In this document: in pieces, positions 1,455 through 16,151 of the stretch
Layout: every line of letters starts with the position of its first letter
Numbering within the stretch: position 1 is the first letter of the stretch
Assembly (NCBI GenBank): GCA_025526915.1
Contig: JAHLKH010000355.1
Span: 1 to 17,601 of the forward strand
Direction of reading: 5' to 3'
Origin: Entophlyctis helioformis
Taxonomy: Eukaryota; Chytridiomycota; Chytridiomycetes; Chytridiales; Chytriomycetaceae
DNA: 17,601 nt
The notes under the pieces: generated by a model
Databases searched by the model: none
What the model was told of the DNA's origin: nothing
What the model saw: the letters and a program-made list of their open reading frames with translations, nothing else
Position numbers and translations under genes: made by a program

Positions 1455-1655
1455 ATCCGCACAGTTTAGCGCTACAATTCTCCATGTCGAAGATTGCAAC
1501 AGGACAATCGGTCTATATCCGACGAGCATGCAGGCGTGCCCGCAGATCCGGTTGGGCCAGTGCATGCTTTTGTTGGATGGCTGGCCCGATCGAGGCTAGG
1601 GATTCATTTGACGTGATATGGAGAATGTGGTGTTATGCGATTGCAGACTGTATTC

Positions 1656-2266
1656 TTACGAGCTGCGGTTGCGGTTGCGAAGGGCTGCAGGGATGGAGTC
1701 GAGGTTGTCAAAGTTCTCCTTGGTCTGGATCTCAGCCTCAACCAGGTTGATGTAAGGGCTGAGGTAGGCGATGTCCTGCCAACAGCAACGGTGAGGGATT
1801 GGAATGCGTGAGCAACGGATTTGGGATCGAATGCCAGCAGGGCGTCGCTTACCGTGGCGGCAGTGGTCCATTCCTCGCGAGGAGCCTGGGTCTTGAGCAT
1901 GGAGAGGTTCAGGGCACGCTTGAAGCGGAAGTGGCGGTCCTGGAACTCTCTCGGGGCAGTCTGCGGAGAGCCTCCTGGACAAGGTCGCTCTCGTCGGGCA
2001 CCAGGTCGTCAAAGCGCAGACCTGCAAAAACAATGTGATGAGTTGGCGTTCCTGCACAGCGACGCACGAGCGACGCAGCAGCGTGGAGGAGGTGGGGGTG
2101 GTGGTGACTGGCTGCGACGGGCGAGGAAGCGGGGCAGACAAAGCAAGGCACGCAACCATACACTGCTTACCCATCTGCCTGTAGCCCATGAGGTTGGCGT
2201 GCCATTCAGCAAGACCGGTGAGGGCCTGGCTTGAGCGAAGCGAACGGAGAGTCTCGAGGAACTTCA
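1656..2266 (-). CDS. QCR7: Ubiquinol-cytochrome c reductase (complex III) subunit 7
   Basis: This small matrix-side subunit of the mitochondrial cytochrome bc1 complex supports its assembly. Three exons on the minus strand are visible: 2266-2171, 2021-1853 and 1775-1656 (stop TAA 1658-1656). The introns are GTAAGC...TTTGCAG and GTAAGC...TTGGCAG. The exons give about 127 residues, the usual family length. Family landmarks appear in order: NLMGYRQMG, LRFDDLVPDESDLVQEALRRLP, REEWTTAATDIAYLSPYI and LVEAEIQTKENFDNLDSI. Near 1956 the sequence has one AG too many (GAGAGA where GAGA is expected), which breaks the frame; this is probably an assembly error because everything after it matches the family. 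The first visible exon begins TG AAG TTC directly after a TTGCAG acceptor. The start codon is therefore either split across this junction (A|TG) or in a small upstream exon I could not place between 2280 and 2480. Confidence 0.9.
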
Positions 2267-2469
2267 CTGCAACAGAGACGGCCGGTCAGTACGAGTGCGG
2301 CTGGCCAGAGAGGAGAGAGGCAGATGCGCAGAGCGGACAGAGTAGGCAGTGCGAGCAGTGCTGCCAAGCACCCAGCGTGCATGGCCACGAGAGCCGTGCT
2401 CGCTGCCTGCATGTCCGTCTGTCCAGCACACTGGCGAGGTGTCGTTGTCAAGCGCTCATCGTCAACCAA

Positions 2470-2724
2470 CTTTAATGGGCCCGATATTCAAACAATTACC
2501 AAGAATTTTGCAATTAAATTCGTCGCAAGAGGCGTCGAAAAGAAGCCCACATATCACACGATGGAAGGTTCGAGTCAGCAACGAGCATGCCACGACAGGT
2601 GGGCGAGGCACATCCAACGAAGTGCTCACCTTTATCGTTAGAAAAAGTGACCCGTTAGGTCGATCGGGAGGTGCCCCGATTCAAAGAGTTGGTGGTCAAA
2701 CAAGTCACTGTGTGGGATGCCAGG
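2470..2724. other. AT-rich 3' flank of the Fanzor gene / upstream region of QCR7
   Basis: No convincing coding sequence is seen here. The stretch 2472-2530 is clearly more AT-rich than its surroundings. It lies just beyond the Fanzor stop (2725) and upstream of QCR7, so it should hold the terminator of one gene and part of the promoter of the other. In known Fanzor and TnpB loci the guide RNA is encoded at or beyond the 3' end of the nuclease gene, so this is where a guide-RNA scaffold would be looked for. That is inference: I did not identify a convincing RNA fold or element end by eye. GGTTCGAGTC at 2567-2576 resembles a tRNA B box, but no cloverleaf fits around it. Confidence 0.3.
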
Positions 2725-5700
2725 TCAAGTGACTTGAGGGCAGGCTGTCTGCGTGCTGGTCGCAGCTGGACGACGGATGGACCGTGTCTTGAACGCTGCT
2801 GTACAGCACGTCTTGAACGCTGCTGGTCGACAGGCTGATCTGATCCATGAGGCCACATGCGACTTGAAGTGTTTCCGCGTTTGAGGCTGTGGGACAACAG
2901 ACGGAGCATCTCGTGCACGCAGCTTGATGGCAGTATGCATTGCCGCGATGCTTTTGAGGTACTCTGGCGTGGCTGGATTGCTGTCAGCTTTGGTGTGTGT
3001 CAAGTAGAGCGGCCGGTGTCCAAAGAGCAGATGCCACAGTGCAACCATCCCGATGTTAGTGGCTCCAAGCACATCGCGGTGGTAGACGGTCGTGCAGTCT
3101 GTGGACTCGTAGCGTCGCAGGTTGGTGCGGTTCTCGTATGGGATCCGCTGCTTGCACTGCGGGCACATCTGGCTGGTCAGGTTCTCGTTGCAGCGGTAGA
3201 TCTGTGTGTGTGCATGATTGTGTGTCAGTTGGTGCACAGATGGATGGATGGACAGCGTGGCATCGGACGCACATAGGCATATCCAGACGACCGCAGATGC
3301 CTGATGAGAAACTTCTCAAACACAGCATGCCGGCCACCTTGGCCTGTAAAGTCGATGCCAAATGCCCACACAACGGGAATGTTGTCCTCTGGGTTGCTGA
3401 CAGGGCGGCCTTGAGATGCACGAGATGCGCGCTTTCCAGTGGTCGATCCTGCCAGCTTCATGATGCCCTCAAGAGCGTTTCCGCGATCAGACGTGCTGTT
3501 GCTGCGCTTGGTGAACCGCTTGGCCTTGACCTTCTGTGGAATGCCATGCCATGCCATGCCATCCAGTGTGATCAGCAGGCGATCAAGCAGCATGGCGGTC
3601 ATGTCAATGGGCATCCAGATACAGAGAAAACGTACCCGTGCATTCAGGAATGGCGTGCAGTACGCACGGCAGCGCAGATCCCAAAAGGCTCTCTCGCCTG
3701 CTGTGGCGTTTGGATCGGCATGCTTTGCTGTCTTGAATGCAATGGCCGCCTGGATGTCGGCTGCCTTGGCATATCGATTGTTGAGCCTGGCACAAGAGGC
3801 AGGCACTGTGAGTTGATCTGGTCAAGAGTGCACGTGGCAGAGTCATTGCATGCATACCACCGCTGAAGGCTGTGCTCGGCTCGTGCCATGCCAGAGGAGA
3901 GCACGTAGTTGGACTCGAGCGTATACGAAAAGTCTCTGAGATCGACCAAGATGCTGGATGCGCCATACAGGTACCGGCTTGCCCCAGTCAAAGCTGACAA
4001 CGCGAACAGTCTGGTAGCCTTGGTCAGTGAACAGGTTGTTGGCGTTGACAATGTTGGGCAGTCGCTGCGAGGCGTAAAAGTTGCGCTGGGCCTGTCGTGC
4101 CATGGCATGAGTGAGGAATGTGCAGTGCATGTGCACCAATGCGTGAGGTTAGCAGGCAAGTGGCTTACAGGATTGGGCGTGTATGGCTTGGCGGCTGATG
4201 GGTCGGCAGGATCGGCGGCTGTGGATGGCATGTCAGTCGGTGTGGACAACAAGAACGTGTCTGAATTGGCACAGCAACTCACATTCGCCGTTAATGTAAT
4301 CGGGCTCACCATCAGCCTCGTCAACAAGCCACGGCTGCTCGCCTGAAGACGCCGCGTTGGGATCTGCAGATCAAGGCGGCAGTCAGAATCCATGTGTGCA
4401 CCAAAGCATTCAAGCATGCCACATACTGCGAGGCGACTCTGGACAGTTTGTGTGGCCATTGAGAGCCAGCTGGTAGATGCTGTATCCATCCGTCATGATG
4501 CTGCCCAGTCTGATTGTCTTGATTGGCCTCGCTGGACACGCGGCATCAATCGCAGCCTTGATATGCTCCTCGCGCTCCTGGCCATCCAGACCCCGCTTGT
4601 CGGCCTCTCGCGTCGCCTTGGCTGTGGCATCGGCTGTGGCCTTGGCAACCGCGTCCATTCGCGCTTTGGCCTCCGCAGGTGTCTGGAAGCGTCGCTCGCT
4701 CAAACAGAGTCCAGGAAGGAGGATGTCGAGAACACAAACCTCATGGCTTGCACTAAACGCCTTCTCGATCGTGTCATTTGGTGACTCGAGTGTCAAGTCT
4801 TCATCTTTGTAGTCTACAATAAAAGTGCAGTGTCAGCATCATATCATCCAGACATGGCATTTACAGGCAGTGCGACCTACTGAGTGCAGCAAGGAGCTGC
4901 TCTCTCAATGCTTGCAAGACAGCATTGTCCTTGGTGGGTACGCGATCCTTCTTTGCCCCCATCACAGCCCAAAAGAGGGTGGTTTCTGTGATGAGGACAA
5001 AGGGATCGCGGCTCGCCGGCTGCGGGCACAGCTTGATGGCTGTGCCTGCGAGATCTCGCAGTTGCTTGAACTTGCCTGCCGGCGACAATGACGCGTTGCA
5101 CTCGACCGCCATGAGCTTGTGCAATGCTTGCGGTAGCTCAATGTCGTCCTGGCCCTCTGTGGCTTGCGTTGTGCCAGGCGTACCGTCCTTGGTGGGGGCC
5201 TTGTCCTTCCTGTGCCGTTGCCTCTTGGGTTTGGCGCTGTTGGTGGCCAATGAAGAGCTTGATGCGGGCCGCTTGCAGCCTGCTGTGGGAGGGGCGGCAT
5301 CCAGAGTGGCTTGTGGTGTGGCGTCCTCGGCGGTAGCAAGCTTGGCGGCCTTGGCAGCCTTGGCAGCAGCAGCCTTGGCGGCCTTGGCAGCCTTGGCGTC
5401 CTCAGCGTCCTTTGCAGCCTTTGCGGCCTTGGCAACATCAGCGGCCTTGGACATGATCTCGCGCCATTTCTTGACATCCTTGGCAGACGAGCCAGGAACC
5501 AGGCGGTGGATTGCCGCGTCCACCAGCATCGACTGGTTCGAGATAAAATGCGTAGAGAGGGTGCCGCAGATATCCCTGGCCAGATTGCTGAAGATACTGG
5601 ACATGGCATCTGCACATAAGCTGTTGTCAAGAATGCCAGGCAAAACGCCATCCATGGCGTCTGCCTCCATCTGCACCGCGTCATCCTGCATCTCAGACGC

Positions 5701-7330
5701 CTGGATTGTGGCTGCCTGCTGTGTTGCGACCGCCGTGTCTGCATCCATTGCAAACATGCGCAGCTTGGCCGCATCCTCCTGCATCTGTGCCATGCTGTCC
5801 TGCATCATCCCCTTTGTCCAAGTGCGATGAATGATCATCTGCATGGTCGTAACAAGCCATGAGTGCACAACATGCTTGTATGCTCGTGGCTTGACCATCT
5901 GGCCACCTGCCAGAATGTACGCGAGGTATCGCAGAAGCATTGTGACGGCTCCCTCGCCGCCAGAGATGCTGCTGGTGAGCGCCGCGAGCAGATCATTTGC
6001 TGTTGGGACGGCTGGTCGCTGGACAGCTTGTGGTGGAGCATCGGTGCCACTGGATGCTGCTGCTGGATTGTGCACATCATGCTCGTCATGGGTGTCCAAG
6101 TCGTCAGGCTGCACAGGCAGCTCGGGCACATTGTGCAAGGAGATCTCGAGTGACACGCCCTGCTCATCATGCTTGCCGTGGTTGTCATGGTCGCTGTGGT
6201 TGTTGTGGTTGTTGTGGCCATGATCGCTGTGGTCATCAGGCTGTGTGGCCTTCTTGGCTGCCTTGAACTCGCAGATCTTGAGCACCGCGCCGCTCTCGAG
6301 GGTCACCAAGTCGCCATACCGATGCAGCTTGCTGTTGCTGCTGCGTGGGCCATTGCCGTACATCTGCCACGCGGTGATGGGTTGTCTGAGGATGCACCCA
6401 TTGGCATAGAGTCCCATGATCTCCTTCTTGCCAAGGTCGTCCGGATTGACAAAACAGAGTGTCGTCATGCCGTCCTTTGTTGCTTCCAAGACGCAGTATT
6501 GAAGTGGCAGCGGCGCATCTGGCTTGAGCATGACCAGCTCCTCAATCATCGCGGCGATCAGAAGGAGTCCTGCGCGCCATATGGTCGCTGTAAAGCGATA
6601 CACGGTGTTGAAAATGTCCTCCACGACCGTACCGCGCGTCTGCATCGCCGGCAGCGTCTTGACTTGGCATCCAAACGCCTTCATAAAGATAGGGTCGGCA
6701 GAGAGCATTTCCTGCACATCGCACAAGTCAACACACACAAAACCAGACGCGCAGATCAACATGCCAATCCAAAACCATACCGCCAGATTGACAATCTGCT
6801 CAGGACGATTGTATGTGCTCTCCACCAGCCTTGGCTCGTTGCCATGGATGGCAGCGGCACCTGTCATGACTGGCAATGCAATCAGGCGATAGATTGCTTC
6901 CAGTAGCTGCCGTATTGCTGATCTCTCACCACGCTCGTATCTGTCAAAGAACGCGCTGGTCAGCATGCACATTCAAGGCAGGCAACATGCCTTATGCCAC
7001 TTACGCCTGTGTCTCGTCCTCAGATTGAGCCTGGCGGGCTTGCTTGCTTGCATCCTTCTTGTGCTCCTGGATGGTCTTGTCCGTCACGGCCTTCTCGGCA
7101 CGCTCTGCTCGCTCCTTCTTGAATACAGCCTGTCTGGCCAGTGTGACCAGGTATGGATCCTGCCGTGGTTGAATGTAATGTTAGGCATGCATTTTGAATG
7201 TGCGCAAGATGCTCACAATCACAAGCCAGCAGTTCAACTCACGGTTGTCTTTGTGTCTTGAAGCACATCAATGTAGAGGATCTTGTCGCGATCTGTGCCA
7301 TCAGCTGCAGCTGGAGATGGCAGCAGCATC
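2725..7330 (-). CDS. Fanzor (TnpB-like RuvC nuclease) half of an XPG-Fanzor fusion gene
   Basis: Fanzors are eukaryotic relatives of TnpB/Cas12, RNA-guided DNA nucleases often carried by transposons. Minus-strand exons: 7330-7243, 7159-7005, 6940-4881, 4813-4427, 4363-4283, 4260-4169, 4091-3636, 3533-3273 and 3201-2725 (stop TGA); all junctions agree in phase. Family marks, numbered in the full fusion: SIMTDGYS near 1545; RuvC-I aspartate in VVSFDWG near 1658; PVVWAFGIDF near 1840; glutamate in CNENLTS near 1868 (the shifted position typical of Fanzors); CPQC 1875-1878; HRDVLGATNI with RuvC-III Asp near 1905. The 2-kb exon also encodes a His/Asp/Asn-rich stretch (6165-6245), an Ala/Lys-rich coiled-coil-like stretch (5335-5450) and a likely nuclear signal KPKRQRHRKDK. 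Exon 4091-3636 has two compensating one-base breaks (GGGG near 4000; near 3810). The C-terminus holds a short duplication (AAFKT twice). The first exon shown is the downstream part of the exon split by the LTR element. Confidence 0.85.
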
Positions 7331-7335
7331 TTTGG
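7331..7335. repeat. Target site duplication TTTGG (left copy)
   Basis: TTTGG directly precedes the TGTAG end of the left LTR, and an identical TTTGG follows the TTACA end of the right LTR at 9247-9251. A 5-bp duplication is the usual footprint of LTR-retrotransposon integrase. Keeping one copy and removing the element restores an open exon reading KAPKM across the junction. Confidence 0.93.
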
Positions 7336-7604
7336 TGTAGTACTGGGCCGCCAGACGGACTTGCCGGCTGGTCTCTCGGGTCAGTATGTGTGCACGCGAG
7401 GAAGGGCGGGCAGACGACTACTTCATTGGGAGGCAGCACAGACCTGGTCTCGGGGCAGTGAGTATGCACGCAGGGGAACGGCGGGCAGACGACTGCAAGA
7501 ACGGGGGAAACCAGAGCGGCCGGTGCGGCCCGACAATGTCTGTCCGGTCACGTGGGTCACGTGGATCACGTGGATCACGTGACCGCGACCGAGCATCCGT
7601 TACA
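7336..7604 (-). repeat. Long terminal repeat (3' LTR in element orientation)
   Basis: This 269-bp repeat is bounded by TGTA/TACA and is nearly identical to 8978-9246. It contains four CACGTG boxes and a twice-repeated GGGCAGACGACT motif. Read on the minus strand its end lies only six bases before an in-frame ATG of the Fanzor half. Confidence 0.95.
7549..7581. promoter_or_regulatory. Array of four CACGTG E-boxes in LTR
   Basis: CACGTG occurs at 7549, 7558, 7567 and 7576, an exact 9-bp period, framed by GGT...ACC so that the block is nearly palindromic. CACGTG is the core site of bHLH factors (Cbf1, Pho4 or USF type). The array is conserved in the other LTR. A role as the LTR's transcriptional control element is inferred from its position. 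Confidence 0.6.
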
Positions 7605-7612
7605 CTCCCCCC
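7605..7612 (-). other. Polypurine tract next to 3' LTR
   Basis: On the minus strand the bases directly before the LTR read GGGGGGAG then TGTAAC. A purine run touching the 3' LTR is the normal primer for plus-strand synthesis in LTR elements, and this sets the element's orientation. The other side offers only a less clean run (GAAAAAAAG, 8957-8965), separated from its LTR by 12 bases. Confidence 0.65.
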
Positions 7613-7987
7613 AGCGTAGACAGCCACTCATAAGAAAGAAGAGTGGATGAACAGCGACTAAGAGGATGCATGGGCGTTGCACACACAAGAAGCAGAGGTG
7701 TGGGCAACAATGGACGCGAAGGACACAGGACGGGGAACCGTGCGCACAGAGCAACAAGGAGAGAGAGAGATGGAGTGGATGGAAGGGGAAGAGATGGAGA
7801 GGTGGATTGGATGGAAGAGGGAAAGGTGGAGAGGTGGACAGATCAGGGCCGAGAGGGTGAACATGGTCAACAGACACATGAACAGGTGGACAAGCCGGAT
7901 GGTGCGGCGATCAGGATGGAAAGGCGACAGCGGCTGCGAGATCGTGCCGGTGGTGACCGAGCTGACGTGCGTGGCCGTGTTGGTGTA

Positions 7988-8560
7988 AGCTGATCCGAAT
8001 GTGGTCAGAGCCGTACGGTGTAGGGTGGCGGCTGATGGCTGGTCAGGGACGCAGTGTGGGTTCAAGTGGCGATCCAAAAGGGATCCCACCCCAGACTCCT
8101 CTCGCAAGAGGCACCGAGCATGGCCTGGATACCCGGTCCAGGAGCTGATGCTGAGCTACAGATGTGCAACGTGCTGGGGCTGGTGTCTGCAGGCTGTGGC
8201 CGATGGATGCTGATGCCGAGACCAATGGCGGCTGGGTGGCTGAGGCGGCTGATGCTGCCAAGGCCGAGGTGATGAACGCGCCCGTCGACGAGAACATCGT
8301 GCTGCAGAAGCAGCGAGGCACAAGCCGATCCAGTGGTGGTTGATATGGCGGACAATGCAGCTGTGGCAGATGCAGGCCGTGCCGTGCTGAAGCGAATGCC
8401 GATACTGACGTGCTGATCCAGATGTGGTCAGGACTGATCGGCGTGGTTGTGGCGGCTGACGAAAGTTGCAGCGGTGCAGTTGAGGGTGTAAGTGGTGATC
8501 GGCTGTGGATCCCGCCCCAACTCCTCTCACAGGAGGCACAGAGCATGCCTGGAGACAATG
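7988..8560. repeat. Degenerate internal duplication within the LTR element
   Basis: Two blocks about 424 bp apart resemble each other: 7988-8120 and 8412-8560. Both run GCTGATCC..ATGTGGTCAG, then GTGGCGGCTGA, then GTGG.GATC..GGATCCC.CCCCA, then ACTCCTCTC, then GAGCATG..CTGG. The copies are clearly diverged, with short gaps. Short GCTGATGC motifs also recur nearby. The interior therefore seems to have grown by duplication; no protein function can be assigned. Confidence 0.55.
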
Positions 8561-8977
8561 TCCAGAAGCAGATGCGGCGACAAGCAGGTGGAGCTGATGC
8601 TGGTGAGCGAGCTGATGCTGGCAGATATCAAACCATGCGACGGAAGGCGAGTGTGAGGCGGCTGTAAAGAGGCATAGGATGCCAGAGCCGGTGGGTGGAT
8701 GACGACACTGCCCACTGCCAGCTGCAGACCAAGACGCATGAAAAAAAGTGCGCTGGTGCACAGCAGCAAGTGTCGACAAGCGGATGCCGCGAGAGCACAG
8801 GAGCGTTGAGACGAGGACGTCCAGTGTGCGAGACTCGAGGCGCAACTCCGCAGGGCCTGGGTGGCAAGACTGCCGACCGCCAGCAGGCCCTGGTTCCAGC
8901 CGAGGCAGCAGAGGCGGCGAGGATGTCCAGCCAAGCTCACCAATGCTGCCCCGACTGAAAAAAAGTTGGGTTCTTGC

Positions 8978-9246
8978 TGTAGTACTGGGCCGCCAGACGG
9001 ACTTGCCGGCTGGTCTCTCGGGTCAGTATGTGTGCACGCGAGGAAGGGCGGGCAGACGACTACTTCATTGGGAGGCAGCACAGACCTGGTCTCGGGGCAG
9101 TGAGTTTGCACACAGGGGAACGGCAGGCAGACGACTGCAAGAACGGGGGAAACCAGAGCGGCCGGTGCGGCCCGACAATGTCTGTCCGGTCACGTGGGTC
9201 ACGTGGATCACGTGGATCACGTGACCGCGACCAAGCATCCGTTACA
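8978..9246 (-). repeat. Long terminal repeat (5' LTR in element orientation)
   Basis: This is the partner of 7336-7604, again 269 bp with TGTA/TACA ends. Substitutions are seen in AGTTTGCACACAGG (versus AGTATGCACGCAGG), CGGCAGGC (versus CGGCGGGC) and ACCAAGC (versus ACCGAGC). Confidence 0.95.
9191..9223. promoter_or_regulatory. Array of four CACGTG E-boxes in second LTR
   Basis: CACGTG occurs at 9191, 9200, 9209 and 9218, identical in spacing to the other LTR. In element orientation this copy would sit in the promoter-bearing 5' LTR. Confidence 0.6.
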
Positions 9247-9251
9247 TTTGG
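9247..9251. repeat. Target site duplication TTTGG (right copy)
   Basis: This is the match of 7331-7335 and directly follows the TTACA end of the right LTR. It is part of the exon of the nuclease gene on the minus strand (CCAAA). Confidence 0.93.
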
Positions 9252-11706
9252 CGCTTTTGGTGGCTTGCCGACCTGTCAAGTCAAAGCATGAGCAGGTGCA
9301 TCAAGCCGCCACATGCAAACAGAGCATAGAAATGCAAAGACGCACTGGAGCCCTGTCAATGATCAGTTTCAGCGCGTCCGTTGCTTGTTGATACTGCTCA
9401 GAAAGTGCCGGCAGCTTGAAGTCATCCGGGCTGTGTTTCTTTTGGCATTCCAAGAGATTCAGCGTGTCTACGGCCTGGTTGCGAATGGCAGCAACAGCCT
9501 TTCGAGTCGCGATCCGTGTGCTCTTTCTGCGGTGCTGTTTAGCCTTGCGGTTGCCTGCCAGAAGAGTGCCATGATCGATTGTGAATACACAAGGTCGCAC
9601 TGTGCCAAACAAATGCAGAGCAAACCTGGCTTCCTTGAACGCCTGAATGGTGCACATGCGATGCCTGGATACCTCTTGAGCCGTTCCTCCAGTCTCAGGA
9701 TCACTGTCTGCTCGCCCAGTGATGGATCAAGTCAGCCATGCTCAAAATCAGCAACAGCATGCAGTGGACAGTCAAGACATGCATCCAAGCCATCCAAAAC
9801 TCACAAAGGCATGTAATATGCTCTGCTCAGCTGGGCTGAGTATCTCATATCCTTTTGTAGCAAGATCCTTCTCGTGCACAGCCTGGAGCAGCTGCTTGCT
9901 TGCATTCTCGCAGATATCAGCAAGAATGTCGCGGCCGTTGATGCTGTCATTGGCAAGCTGATCTGCTGTGCACTGGAGGACGCAGCTAAACACAACACGG
10001 CAGCTGTAGACTGCTGCAAAAACTTCGTCCAGCCGCCTTGTGTTGGCAATCCGTTTGGCAAGCCCCTTGACTGTGTCCCATGTGAGGTGGAAAACTCCAT
10101 GACTGGCATTGCCCTTCAGCTGCTGTGCCGTGTGGCTCAAGCAGCAATCACTGCAGACCGTGCATGCAGAGGCAGATCTGCCAGTGGCATCCATCAGAGT
10201 CAGTGCCATGAGAATCCTGCAGAGATCGCAGCCGTGCCTACCTGTTTTGGGGCGAGATGGTCCTGTTGGCAGTCCTGCTGTCGCCATTGGATGGTGCATG
10301 CATTCATGTCAATGCCATGCTGTCCAAGTGCATCCAAAGCAAGACTTACTGCCGCATCTGTCCTGCAAACACACTGGCATAATGGCCACATGCTGGGGCT
10401 GTGATCTCTCCAATATCGGCTCCTCTCTCGTCACGGTTGAGAAACACCGCGAAGGCATTGCTGAATGACTGAGCAAGAGGCTTGCCGCCGATCTTGTACA
10501 TCTGCCACATGAACGCAATCTTGATGACATGCACAAACATCCTCGCAATGTCGGGGTCTTGGAGGCATTCACAGACATCCGCGACAGAGATACCCAGCTG
10601 CTCTGCCTCCAACCGAATGCATGCCATGATGCACTTTGCAGCCGTGACAATCCCTTTCAAGCCAACATCGCAGCATCATGCATAAGTCAAGGTCGCAGTG
10701 CATGGCATCCAAAAATGCAAAGCAGGCAAGCCAACCTACCAATCCCAACACAATGGAAATAGTCGTTGCTCGCCATTGCGGCCACCAACTGGCAGACAAA
10801 GGGAATGTCTGGCAAGCCTAAGGCGGCTGCAATAGAGGCAATCCCATGGTGATTGTAGGATCGCATTCTATTGATCTGCCCACTGCGCATTTGCAGCAGC
10901 AGGACAGGGCAATAGCCGGCACAGTGGAACACCAGATCGGAGTCGCCACTGATCACAATGACTGGCACATTGCTGTCAAGAAGGCGCGTGAGCCATGGAT
11001 TCTAGAAGCATGCAGAAGGCCGACCAACCTTGCTTCACGGGAATGGCGTGCAATGCAAACATCCGCTTCGTTCTCGCAAAGGCACACAGACGACCCGCCT
11101 TTGAAGTATCTGAGAAGACTGCCCAGGGCCCTCGAGATGGCTGCCTTGCGCTCGCGTGTGAGGGGGTATGCCTTCTGCAGGCGCTGCATCTCGTTTCTGG
11201 AATGGCATTGAGTCAGTACAGCATGCAGATCAACAGAAGCCAACAACATACCTCGAGAGCTTGCCGCTCTTCTTGCCAGCATTTCGCTTGGCTGCCTCAG
11301 CCATGAGAAAGGATGCCGCCTCCAATGCCGCCCAGGCCCGCCCGGCATAGGCAGTCTTGATGGCGGTGTTGAGCTGCGAGCCGTCAACGTGCAGCTGGAC
11401 TGTGTGCAGCTGTCCAATGGCTGCGGCAAGGCTGCTGATGAGCGGCTCGAGTAGCAGCCTCCAGTCGTCGTCAGACTGGGGCGGCTTTGCGGCTGCTGCT
11501 CTCATAATGTCAATGAAGAGCAGGCAAACAATGTCGATGTGGAGGATGCAGCTGATGGGCTCCGAGTCGGCTGCTGCTGCTGCTTCTGCTGCATCTGGCT
11601 GCTGCTGGGCAATGGCCTGAATGGCAGTGGGCAGAGGGGTGTCTGCTTTGTATGTCTTGACACCACCTCTCTTGTCGATGGTGGGGAGACTGTCGTCGAC
11701 TCCCAT
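9247..11706 (-). CDS. XPG/FEN1-like nuclease half of an XPG-Fanzor fusion gene
   Basis: XPG/FEN1 family nucleases cut flap, bubble or junction DNA using a cluster of acidic residues. Minus-strand exons: 11706-11252, 11196-11034, 11001-10740, 10653-10350, 10237-9805, 9707-9346 and 9272-9247, the last cut by the LTR element. I chose the ATG at 11706 because the family needs Met-Gly at the N-terminus (MGVDDSL); an in-frame ATG-like start further out would hide it. Expected acidic positions are all present: D58 (HIDIV), D108 (HVDG), E193 and E195 (CENEAD), D226 and D228 (SGDSDL), D286 (SNDY). The DNA-binding hairpin follows as VGIGIVTAAK (291-300). Residues 398-427 carry CDLC...CTVCSDCC, a possible zinc knuckle. 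Exon 9707-9346 needs one extra base near 9660 and then encodes a basic region (GNRKAKQHRRKSTR). Intron 11033-11002 is only 32 nt with a GC donor. Junction phases run on into the Fanzor half. Confidence 0.82.
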
Positions 11707-12114
11707 GTGTGTTTGTTGTGTGTTGTTTTGTGTCGGTCGTTTTACGGGCAAGCTGCTCTCATAATATCAGACTGATGGTTGGTGGCAACACATGGAGCAC
11801 TGGTCTGTGTGTGTGTGGAATGGCATGCTCCTCAGAGAGAGAGAGAGAGCGTTGCACATGACTATGTACTCGCCCCTCTTTATTCATGGAGGACACACAC
11901 GCACCCCCCAGCGAGACAGCAGACGCTGCTGCCTGCACCACTGCCGTTGCTGTGCTCGCATCGCGCAGCGACTGCACTGCGCAACGGCTCTCTAGATCGA
12001 CCAATCACAGCGATTCCACCAGGAGTTGACCAATCACAGCGATTCCACCAGGGGTATGAACCGGACCAACTTTTTCACTGGTGAGTGACGATTGAATCGC
12101 ACACCAACAGCGAG
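11707..12114. promoter_or_regulatory. Divergent promoter between nuclease gene and COG2
   Basis: These 408 bp separate the start codons of two genes read in opposite directions, so they should contain both promoters and 5' leaders. Visible elements are the duplicated CCAAT unit (11999-12052), a short GA run near 11837-11850, and pyrimidine-rich sequence around 11866-11880. I see no clear TATA box and no coding sequence. The leader of COG2 contains GTGAGTGACG at 12081; with no acceptor before the ATG I do not call an intron there. Confidence 0.6.
11999..12052 (+). repeat. Tandem 25-bp repeat with two CCAAT boxes
   Basis: GACCAATCACAGCGATTCCACCAGG appears exactly twice, at 11999-12023 and 12028-12052, with a 4-bp spacer. 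Each copy has CCAATCA, the binding core of the NF-Y/HAP complex, 86 and 115 bases upstream of the COG2 ATG, a normal distance for CCAAT boxes. Confidence 0.85.
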
Positions 12115-14052
12115 ATGGCAACTGGCGCTGTCGAGCACAGTGGTGGCGGGGCGACGGCCTTCGCAGAGACCAAGAGCGCCACCACAGAGGACACCGACAT
12201 GTTTCTGTCCTTCAGGCGCCACGACTTTCTTGCAGACTCGTTCGCACCCGTTGGCTTCGTTGCAGCACGCAAGCATCTACCGGTGGACCAGTTCAAGCAC
12301 GACCTGCACGGAACGCTTCGAGTGCTCAAGACCGAGCTCGTCGAGCTCATCAACAACGACTATGCGCAGTTCATTTCGCTCTCAACCAACCTTGTCGGCG
12401 TCGACAGCATGATATCCGACCTCAAGAAGCCGCTGTCTCGCATCCAGGCCAATGTCGAGGTGTGTGTTTGTGAATGCCAGTGTGGCGGCGGCCACGTTCA
12501 GCTCGACCACCACAAACGGCGCAGCTTATAATTCCAGCGGTCGAGGTTCTATTCCCAGATCTGGAGCTGGACTGACTGATGCCGATGGGCTCTCCGTCGC
12601 ATGGCGGATCTTTAACGACAGACCGTCCAAGGCGCCATTGATGGTGTCATTGACCGACTCGAGACGGGTCTGCAAAAGCGTGCACTTGTCCGAACCAAAA
12701 AGGCAGCGTTGGAGGTCTTTCTCAGCATCCACGAGTCGCTTGAAAAGGTCCAGGCAGTCATCGACTCATCTGCGGCAGGATCTGCATCTGGCTCGTCAGA
12801 CGACATGGACGAGAAGCTGCTTGAGCGTGTTGCCATCGAGTACAACCAGCTCCGCTACCTTGTTTCTCGCGGCCAAAACCTGGCGTTTGTCTCCAATATC
12901 GCATGGGTATGTTTACAGCCAGCATCCATGATCCTCACGCGTGCTCTGCGGGCTGTACTGCATTGTTTACATATTTACTCTTGCATGTACGCTGCGTCAT
13001 GTGCGCTGCATCATGTGCGCTGCTGGATGCATCTGAGCAGAGAATCGAAAATATCAAGAATACGCTCGTGTCTACGCTTTCCAACTATGTGCGGCAAGGG
13101 TACACGACCCTCTCAGTCGACCCGTCAAACGCCAGTGCCGCATCTTCATTGCTGCAAACACTACGTGTTTTTGTGCTCATCGATCGCGTTGGCGACGCCT
13201 TGAATGTCTTTGACGAGTGTATTCTTGGGCCATTTGTTGATGAGGTAAGTCGTGTAGACTGCACGTGGATGCCACGTCTGCTGTAGCCTTGACTCGTGTT
13301 GGATTGTGTGGCAGAGCATTCGCGCAGATTCTGTGGATCTTGCAGGTGTCTCGACTCCTACCGGAACACCCGGTCGCTCAGAGCTCAAATCCGCTGCAAG
13401 ACATGCTCGACCGTGTCTTGATGTTTGTTACGACGCGGTGTTCCCGTATCTATGACATCACAACAGTTGCGTTCAAAGGAACCCACTACGATCTGCTGGC
13501 CAACACCATCTGGACTCGAATCATCACAGCTATTGTCACGAAGCTGCCCATCATCTTCAATGCTGGCATTCCAAGCATCTTCCATGGCAACTACCAGACG
13601 GCCATGGCGTTTGTGTGTGAGTTTGAACGCATGTGCAAAAGCCGCGACGCTCTGCGCAGTCTCCGAAACAGTCAGCCCTATTCGGACTTTATGCGTAAAT
13701 GGCAGCTCTCCATCTACTTCCAGATACGGTAGGTGCATTTCTCACTTGCTATACAGAAACGACTCCACAGACTGGCTGGTCAAGTCTGTTGATGGCACTG
13801 ATGCCATCACTCTTAGGCACAACGAGATTGCCGTCAAGTTCGAGACGGCAATTGCCATTGGCCGCGAGCCGCGCGATCCTATCGAGAATGGCAGTCTGCC
13901 TACCTTTGGCGGCGCTAGCCTACAACTCAAAGCTAGTGTGGCATTGATTCAGGCACTTTCGCGATGCTGGGACGATACCGTCTACCTTGGGTCTCTTTCG
14001 CACCGTTTCTGGCGCTTCACGCTTCAGGTAAGCACCGCTCTATATGCATTCA

Positions 14053-15440: not shown

Positions 15441-15511
15441 AAATTTTGACCCATTTATCAAACTACAATCGACGGCACTCGACTGCTGAGCAGCACCGAC
15501 ACACCTACCCC

Positions 15512-16151
15512 ATGGTCAACTTTGACATTGGCGTTGGCCCGCCCGCCACCTACATCCCGCCGTCATGGCCGTCGCTTGCGTGGGTTGCGGGACCGCAGCC
15601 CATCTTCAGCACAGCGCCGGTCCTGTGTACCGAGAAGGTTTGTTTGTGCCAAGCGCACACGTGCCCAGGGTGATTTTCGTCGGTGCCCGTTTGGGCGGCT
15701 GCAAACAATGCTGACGGGCTTGGCCGCCGTGCACCTGCTTGGACAGATATGCTCTTCTTCATCATGCTCTGGGACCATCGTCGTCTTCTTTGCCGTCTTC
15801 ACGATCGCTGGCCTGGTAGCCGCTCCTAATGTTCCATCGGCACAGAGCTGGCCTCTTTCTGCTGATCGGATTCGCAGCGTATGGTGTGTCTATTGGGGCT
15901 GCCTCTGGAGCCATTGTTGGTACGTCGAGTGCATTCTTGTGGCCCTGCCCGAGCGCATCAAGGCACATGCGACACTGCTGACCTCCATGCATCCATGCAT
16001 GTGCATGGCTTACATAGGCGCAATGCTGTCTTCCTTTTATGTAACTGGGTTCCTGAGCATGCCCACATGGGTTCCGCTGGCATGGGCGATCATACAGGCA
16101 GGCATCGCCGCCATATTCTCGTTCTCCAAGATCTCCATGAATGCTGCCTGA
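15512..16151 (+). CDS. TMEM170-like integral membrane protein
   Basis: The TMEM170 family consists of small proteins with three membrane spans; the animal members act in shaping endoplasmic reticulum and nuclear envelope membranes. Exons: 15512-15641 (alternative donor 15638), 15747-15919 and 16018-16151. The corrected product is about 144 residues, the usual length for the family. The first exon encodes MVNFDIGVGPPATYIPPSWPS, an extramembrane N-terminus. Hydrophobic segments follow: MLFFIMLWTIVVFFAVF with AGLVAAL, then FLLIGFAAYGVSIGAASGAIV, then WVPLAWAIIQAGIAAIFSF near the C-terminus (ends SMNAA, TGA). Between spans 1 and 2 lies MFHRHRAG, like the basic HRH motif of the family. Two one-base insertions (GGG near 15771; CC near 15827) break the frame and are probably assembly errors. 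It starts only about 70 bp after the COG2 stop. Confidence 0.75.

Follow-up and report, generated by a model that had tools for sequence, protein, structure and literature searches.

Fanzors are RNA-guided nucleases carried by transposons, and how they aid the spread of an element in eukaryotes is an open question. At a locus of the chytrid fungus Entophlyctis helioformis, a minus-strand gene appears to join an XPG/EXO1-like nuclease to a Fanzor-type nuclease. Is this a single protein, and is it part of a mobile element? The locus lies on contig JAHLKH010000355.1 of assembly GCA_025526915.1 (C355; other contigs are named likewise), whose 17,601 bp are referred to here as the window. The genome searched comprises 29.6 Mb in 482 contigs. 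Comparison of the copies gives good support for a conserved nuclease-Fanzor architecture, carried by a chytrid transposon that is present in many copies.

The first line of evidence is gene order. Exon-level matches numbered 216 for the nuclease query and 325 for the Fanzor query, and the counts of order use the listed part of each. The listed matches collapse to 72 distinct nuclease sites. At 44 of them, a Fanzor match is listed on the same strand at a distance of 4,457-11,440 bp downstream (median 5,217 bp); with the middle exons of the gene included, 52 of the 72 have one or the other match downstream. Within 12 kb of the 72 nuclease sites listed, no Fanzor match lies on the opposite strand or at an upstream position. 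One of the 20 sites for which neither match is listed, that on C60, nonetheless carries a Fanzor, so that for at least one of the 20 the missing match reflects the extent of the listing. Middle-exon matches mark 68 listed sites; a Fanzor match is listed downstream of 50 of these, and a nuclease match upstream of 36. The same order at dozens of sites, none of them reversed among the matches listed, is more than chance.

In the window, the gene was rebuilt on the minus strand from an ATG at 11706 to a TGA at 2727-2725. This bears out the extent proposed in an initial annotation of the sequence, which had counted 14 introns and about 2,020 residues; the rebuilt gene has 18 introns and its product about 1,917 residues. 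Exons 1-6 (9805-11706, with borders 11706-11252, 11196-11029, 10972-10740, 10653-10350, 10274-10242, and 10177-9805), recognized by GT-AG borders, open frame, invariant acidic residues, and fold, encode the nuclease part with its extension. Four linker exons follow, namely, 9707-9626, 9554-9346, 9272-9247 continued at 7330-7243, and 7159-7005, the third being split by a long terminal repeat (LTR) element. The middle part consists of exons 6940-6781 and 6711-4881 (together 4881-6940), and the TDG, RuvC, zinc finger, and RD motifs fall in the C-terminal exons (2725-4813, with borders 4813-4427, 4363-4283, 4218-4169, 4091-3858, 3786-3636, 3533-3273, and 3201-2725), identified by PF07282, a motif test, and the frame.

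Exon phases had been described as matching throughout. Exons 11706-11252 through 9272-9247 form a single open frame of 627 codons, and beyond the LTR element the frame resumes at 7330 and runs to exon 4091-3858; up to this point the description stands, but near 3977 the frame of the window copy breaks. The exon that encodes RuvC-I measures 234 nt in the window versus 233 in all five other family-1 copies, and the last exons (3786-3636, 3533-3273, and 3201-2725) are therefore read in a shifted frame. The LTR element itself (7336-9246, minus strand) interrupts the gene as had been proposed. Its 269-bp LTRs differ at 4 positions, it is flanked by a 5-bp target-site duplication (TSD), CCAAA, at 9251-9247 and 7335-7331, and one long frame inside it gave no convincing Pfam match. 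The insertion is absent from C26, an allelic copy that matches the window at 93-98% over 13047-1813, both flanks included and the LTR insertion excepted. The exon of C26 crosses the insertion site without a break, and a later exon of C26 carries a 149-nt insertion of its own.

The linker between the two halves is open in the window, C10, and C125, which represent three lineages. Its four exons measure 82/82/82, 209/212/236, 114/117/114, and 155/155/158 nt in these copies, respectively, and all the length changes are multiples of three. Amino acid identity in the linker is 60% between the window and C10, 32% between the window and C125, and 31% between C10 and C125. When the C125 linker was shuffled by mononucleotide, it stayed open in 63 of 20,000 trials. 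The ratio of nonsynonymous to synonymous substitution (dN/dS, Nei-Gojobori count) is about 0.73 for the window and C10 and about 0.53 for the window and C125. The first of these ratios is weak evidence for the joint frame, since both wrong frames give a nearly equal proportion of nonsynonymous differences.

The N-terminal part contains a GIG-type hairpin motif in the window copy, in agreement with the initial annotation, which had also listed all seven acidic positions of the XPG/FEN1 family. All seven are found in the window, but only six (D58, D108, E195, D218, D220, and D278) are invariant in the four lineages compared; at the seventh, E193 in the window, the other lineages have K, A, or D. 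Structure prediction, which had been suggested as a check, gave a low-confidence model of this part whose matches are EXO1, ExoIX, and T5 FEN, that is, a FEN-type fold. By sequence, the domain is too distant for a search of the PDB. The Pfam profile XPG_I_2 matches three of four members, the best at E 2.3e-4 and 21.2 bits, below the curated cut-off of 24.2; no Pfam XPG profile matches the C125 composite, and XPG_N matches in the genome occur only in host genes on C1, C2, and C43. The score below cut-off is a limit of detection and not a defining trait; what is claimed is the fold, not the Pfam family. The domain shares with EXO1, FEN1, T5 FEN, and ExoIX the order of fold elements and the six invariant acidic positions. 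It differs from them in lying within a transposon protein, in the unconserved seventh position, and in its sequence distance.

The C-terminal part is matched by PF07282 above the cut-off (E 3.5e-9 and 4.6e-10). The published Fanzor1 motif, D-X(125,275)-[TS][TS]XX-C4 zinc finger-X(5,50)-RD, is present in C10 with spacings of 188 and 5. The TDG motif reads SIMTDGYSIYQLAL in the window and also occurs in C342 and C18, and in CNENLTSQMCPQC a glutamate stands ahead of the TS motif, which, judged by the motif, would be the alternative position of RuvC-II. The annotated combination of TDG motif, RuvC aspartates, putatively shifted glutamate, and zinc knuckle is recovered together with RD, except that in the window one cysteine of the zinc finger is replaced by serine, so that this copy misses the Fanzor1 zinc-finger motif. 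The motif was read in six of eight other loci examined, and CxxC...CxxC is kept in all six. RuvC-I is DWG and not DPG in the window, C342, C18, C10, and C60, a point against a canonical Fanzor1. In the text of PMC10711439, DPG is almost confined to Fanzors, with D-hydrophobic-G found in TnpB. On these motifs, the C-terminal part is Fanzor-type, a divergent relative rather than a canonical Fanzor1, because DPG is nearly exclusive to Fanzors.

The middle part (exons 6940-6781 and 6711-4881) is probably the N-terminal half of the Fanzor. Neither Pfam nor fold analysis placed exon 6711-4881 (610 aa). The middle part gives 144 exon-level matches in the genome, and in many of the middle exons a frame of 500-850 aa has stayed open although identity is about 40-55%. 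In alignment A2, middle-exon lineages are about 44% identical (loci L115 and L116 versus the window and L066), and the nuclease and RuvC ends of those same copies can be about 90% alike at the DNA level. Because the ends can be so alike while the middle differs, the middle region seems to have been exchanged as a block.

Homology between unlinked copies ends at 12064 (5′ end) and 2474 (3′ end), which delimits a minus-strand transposon body of 9591 bp in the window, or 7680 bp without the later LTR insertion. The nuclease-Fanzor gene is the only gene recognized in it. It is flanked by a 9-bp TSD, AAAGTTGGT, at 12065-12073 (5′ copy) and 2465-2473 (3′ copy). In the flank-pair control, duplications scoring at least 8 were found in 14 of 27 copies versus 8 of 700 mismatched pairs. 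The terminal inverted repeats (TIRs) are imperfect, with 4 differences between the element ends over the 22 bp compared and a degenerate 5′ TIR in the window copy; the TIR pattern gave 190 hits in the genome versus 0 for the reversed control. Near the 5′ end, at 11999-12052, stand two 25-bp direct subterminal repeats, CCTGGTGGAATCGCTGTGATTGGTC, with two exact matches and none expected from shuffles. Among L006-L035 and L072, 28 3′ ends were read, and 10 of them show a second end type, in which 49 further conserved bp (CATTTGCC...CCCACCCCTC) follow the TIR (L008, L011, L012, L014, L018, L020, L030, L031, L032, and L072). The 5′ end of this type was not found in the 1.75 kb upstream of the C125 gene.

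A conserved noncoding stretch (2479-2685, minus strand) closes the element at its 3′ side and ends in the 3′ TIR. The last 200 nt before the end of this TIR are 84-95% identical among four lineages, versus 36-62% for the nuclease domains (amino acids). In a consensus structure from 33 aligned sequences, CCCGAU pairs with AUCGGG inside the TIR, and one hairpin exists in at least four variants of sequence or length, all of them pairable (z -0.7 to -3.9 versus mononucleotide shuffles). The flank past the TIR varies by site, apart from the 49 bp of the second end type, an arrangement to be expected of a Fanzor guide-RNA scaffold with its guide behind it. By alignment, structure, and identity, the stretch is probably a guide-RNA scaffold, for which the flanking DNA beyond the TIR would supply the guide. 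Several results temper this assignment. Double changes occur at only 4 of 37 consensus pairs, with a small covariation term (-0.44), and a sequence folded singly does not stand out (z -0.54). Good conservation extends to the 3′ coding part, so that recombination between lineages may contribute to the conservation of the noncoding stretch.

Comparison of the copies establishes in what order the genes stand, that their joint frame is open, where the element ends, and that the 3′ sequence of the putative RNA is conserved. What the element does with them can be proposed as follows. The protein would consist of an XPG/EXO1-like nuclease, a linker, and a Fanzor-type nuclease working with the guide-RNA scaffold, and it would copy the element via repair; we give this account an even chance. 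The 3′ end would encode the scaffold, with the DNA just past the insertion as the guide, and the protein-RNA complex would cut chromosomes that lack the element. The fused nuclease would then resect or trim the 5′ ends of the cut, and 5′ resection would favor homologous repair, by which the element is copied into the gap from the chromosome that carries it. A transposase supplied from elsewhere would account for first insertions into new sites and for their 9-bp duplications. By the text of PMC10432273, SpuFz1 leaves 5′ overhangs, and an EXO1-like domain might act on overhangs of this type. The role suggested in the initial annotation, guided cutting followed by processing of the ends, is plausible. 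A further step, that one polypeptide sets both target and repair pathway and so acts as a natural RNA-guided gene drive forcing homologous copying, is offered tentatively, and we would lean against it at present.

The joint frame could also serve two products of one locus, with retention of intron 5 giving a nuclease of about 400 residues and the Fanzor coming from another splice form or an internal start. Several observations favor this rival and weigh against a single protein. The intron-5 donor (10241, minus strand) reads GTAG, which gives an in-frame TAG if unspliced in both the window and C10. P0001, an NCBI gene model of 397 aa from a related copy, ends in SARKK, the residues that would also end C10 if intron 5 were read through, and seems by its sequence to end the nuclease part at that intron. 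Once the LTR insert is taken out of the window, about 55 nt separate the read-through stop after exon 8 from an internal ATG downstream (7329). However, P0001 is a gene prediction, compared with C10 at the protein level, and C125 has no immediate stop at the unspliced donor. The internal ATG that the window and C10 share is also missing from C125. An in-frame stop immediately upstream of exon 6 in C125 means that this exon must be spliced to an earlier one, and the phase of exons 5-9 is kept in the three lineages. The missing ATG and the stop in C125, together with a gap of only 55 nt in the window, argue against two genes, and the two-product explanation appears unlikely to us. The single fusion gene of the initial annotation is supported by order, strand, a linker open in three lineages, an XPG/EXO1-type fold in a low-confidence model, and Fanzor-type motifs, with the end of P0001 still against it. 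As a separate observation, the stop at the intron-5 donor might serve to switch from a long protein to a short one.

The locus could instead be a fossil, an old element with two adjacent genes whose joint frame is accidental or disused. Frame breaks are indeed found in all nine copies read (window, C26, C342, C193, C7, C18, C10, C125, and C60), in models whose exon borders were mostly transferred from the window; this too counts against a working fusion. Against a fossil stand the joint frame kept at 31-60% identity, the long open middle exons, and the constant strand and order among the sites listed. Part of the damage in the window may moreover be due to assembly error, and C355 may hold indel errors, because a neighboring gene with a weak UCR_14kD match (about 1650-2290, minus strand) differs by one base of a C run from C26, where it is in frame; at least one indel error is therefore likely there. 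The fossil reading is very improbable. The main rival role for a fused protein is RNA processing, in which the nuclease domain would trim messenger or guide RNA rather than DNA ends, as XRN1 and Rat1, members of the same fold class, act on RNA. In the Foldseek search with the N-terminal model, however, ranks 1-19 are all EXO1, FEN1, T5 FEN, or plastid EXO1, and XRN1 first appears at rank 25, so that action on RNA seems doubtful.

The preferred reading, a DNA-processing nuclease fused to a Fanzor-type nuclease, can be set beside known systems. The initial annotation knew of no such fusion, and no description of one was found in searches of open-licence papers; XPG and FEN1 do not occur in the main texts of PMC3627910, PMC10711439, and PMC10432273. 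PMC3627910 describes Fanzor elements of fungi that have MuDR-like TIRs and 9-bp TSDs but lack a transposase. As described, they resemble the present element in placing a Fanzor protein in a fungal TIR element, in their TSDs, and in having no transposase of their own. In the main text of that article, no fused nuclease is mentioned, and flap, like XPG and FEN1, has no occurrence. The 9-bp TSD is shared with MuDR/MULE elements, but the MULE transposase PF10551 has no match in the genome versus 3 of 14 control genomes, in an exon-by-exon search that may miss a diverged gene. KDZ-type transposase matches (PF18758) occur at L121 on C334, and the ends of the nuclease-Fanzor element are absent near that gene region. 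According to the texts of PMC10432273 and PMC3627910, SPu-1, the element of SpuFz1 in Spizellomyces punctatus, is about 2.1 kb long, with one open reading frame of 633 aa, 33-bp TIRs, and putative TA TSDs. SpuFz1, a chytrid Fanzor1, shares with the present protein a chytrid transposon, RuvC with a zinc finger, and a guide RNA from the element end, putative here; in contrast, the present element measures about 7.7 kb, and its gene has 18 introns and encodes about 1,917 aa with a nuclease domain in front. As TnpB is presented in PMC10711439, it shares RuvC, the zinc ribbon, RNA from the right end (again putative here), and D-hydrophobic-G as DWG, whereas the TDG motif and putative alternative-position glutamate, both Fanzor marks, the introns, and the fused nuclease set the present protein apart.

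In the remainder of the window, a neighboring gene with a COG2 N-terminal match lies at 12085-12531 (plus strand, E 6e-19), another with a weak Tmemb_170 match at 15450-16151 (plus strand), and a long CA/TG dinucleotide run at about 1190-1250.

The proliferative advantage of Fanzors is inferred from copy numbers in the text of PMC10711439. If a 5′ nuclease with the EXO1/FEN1 fold is indeed fused to a Fanzor in nature, this would suggest that the control of repair is part of Fanzor spread. Genome-editing designs that link an exonuclease to a guided cutter would then have a precedent in nature. For chytrid biology, the gain is a transposon family of high abundance, along with its candidate guide RNAs and target sites.

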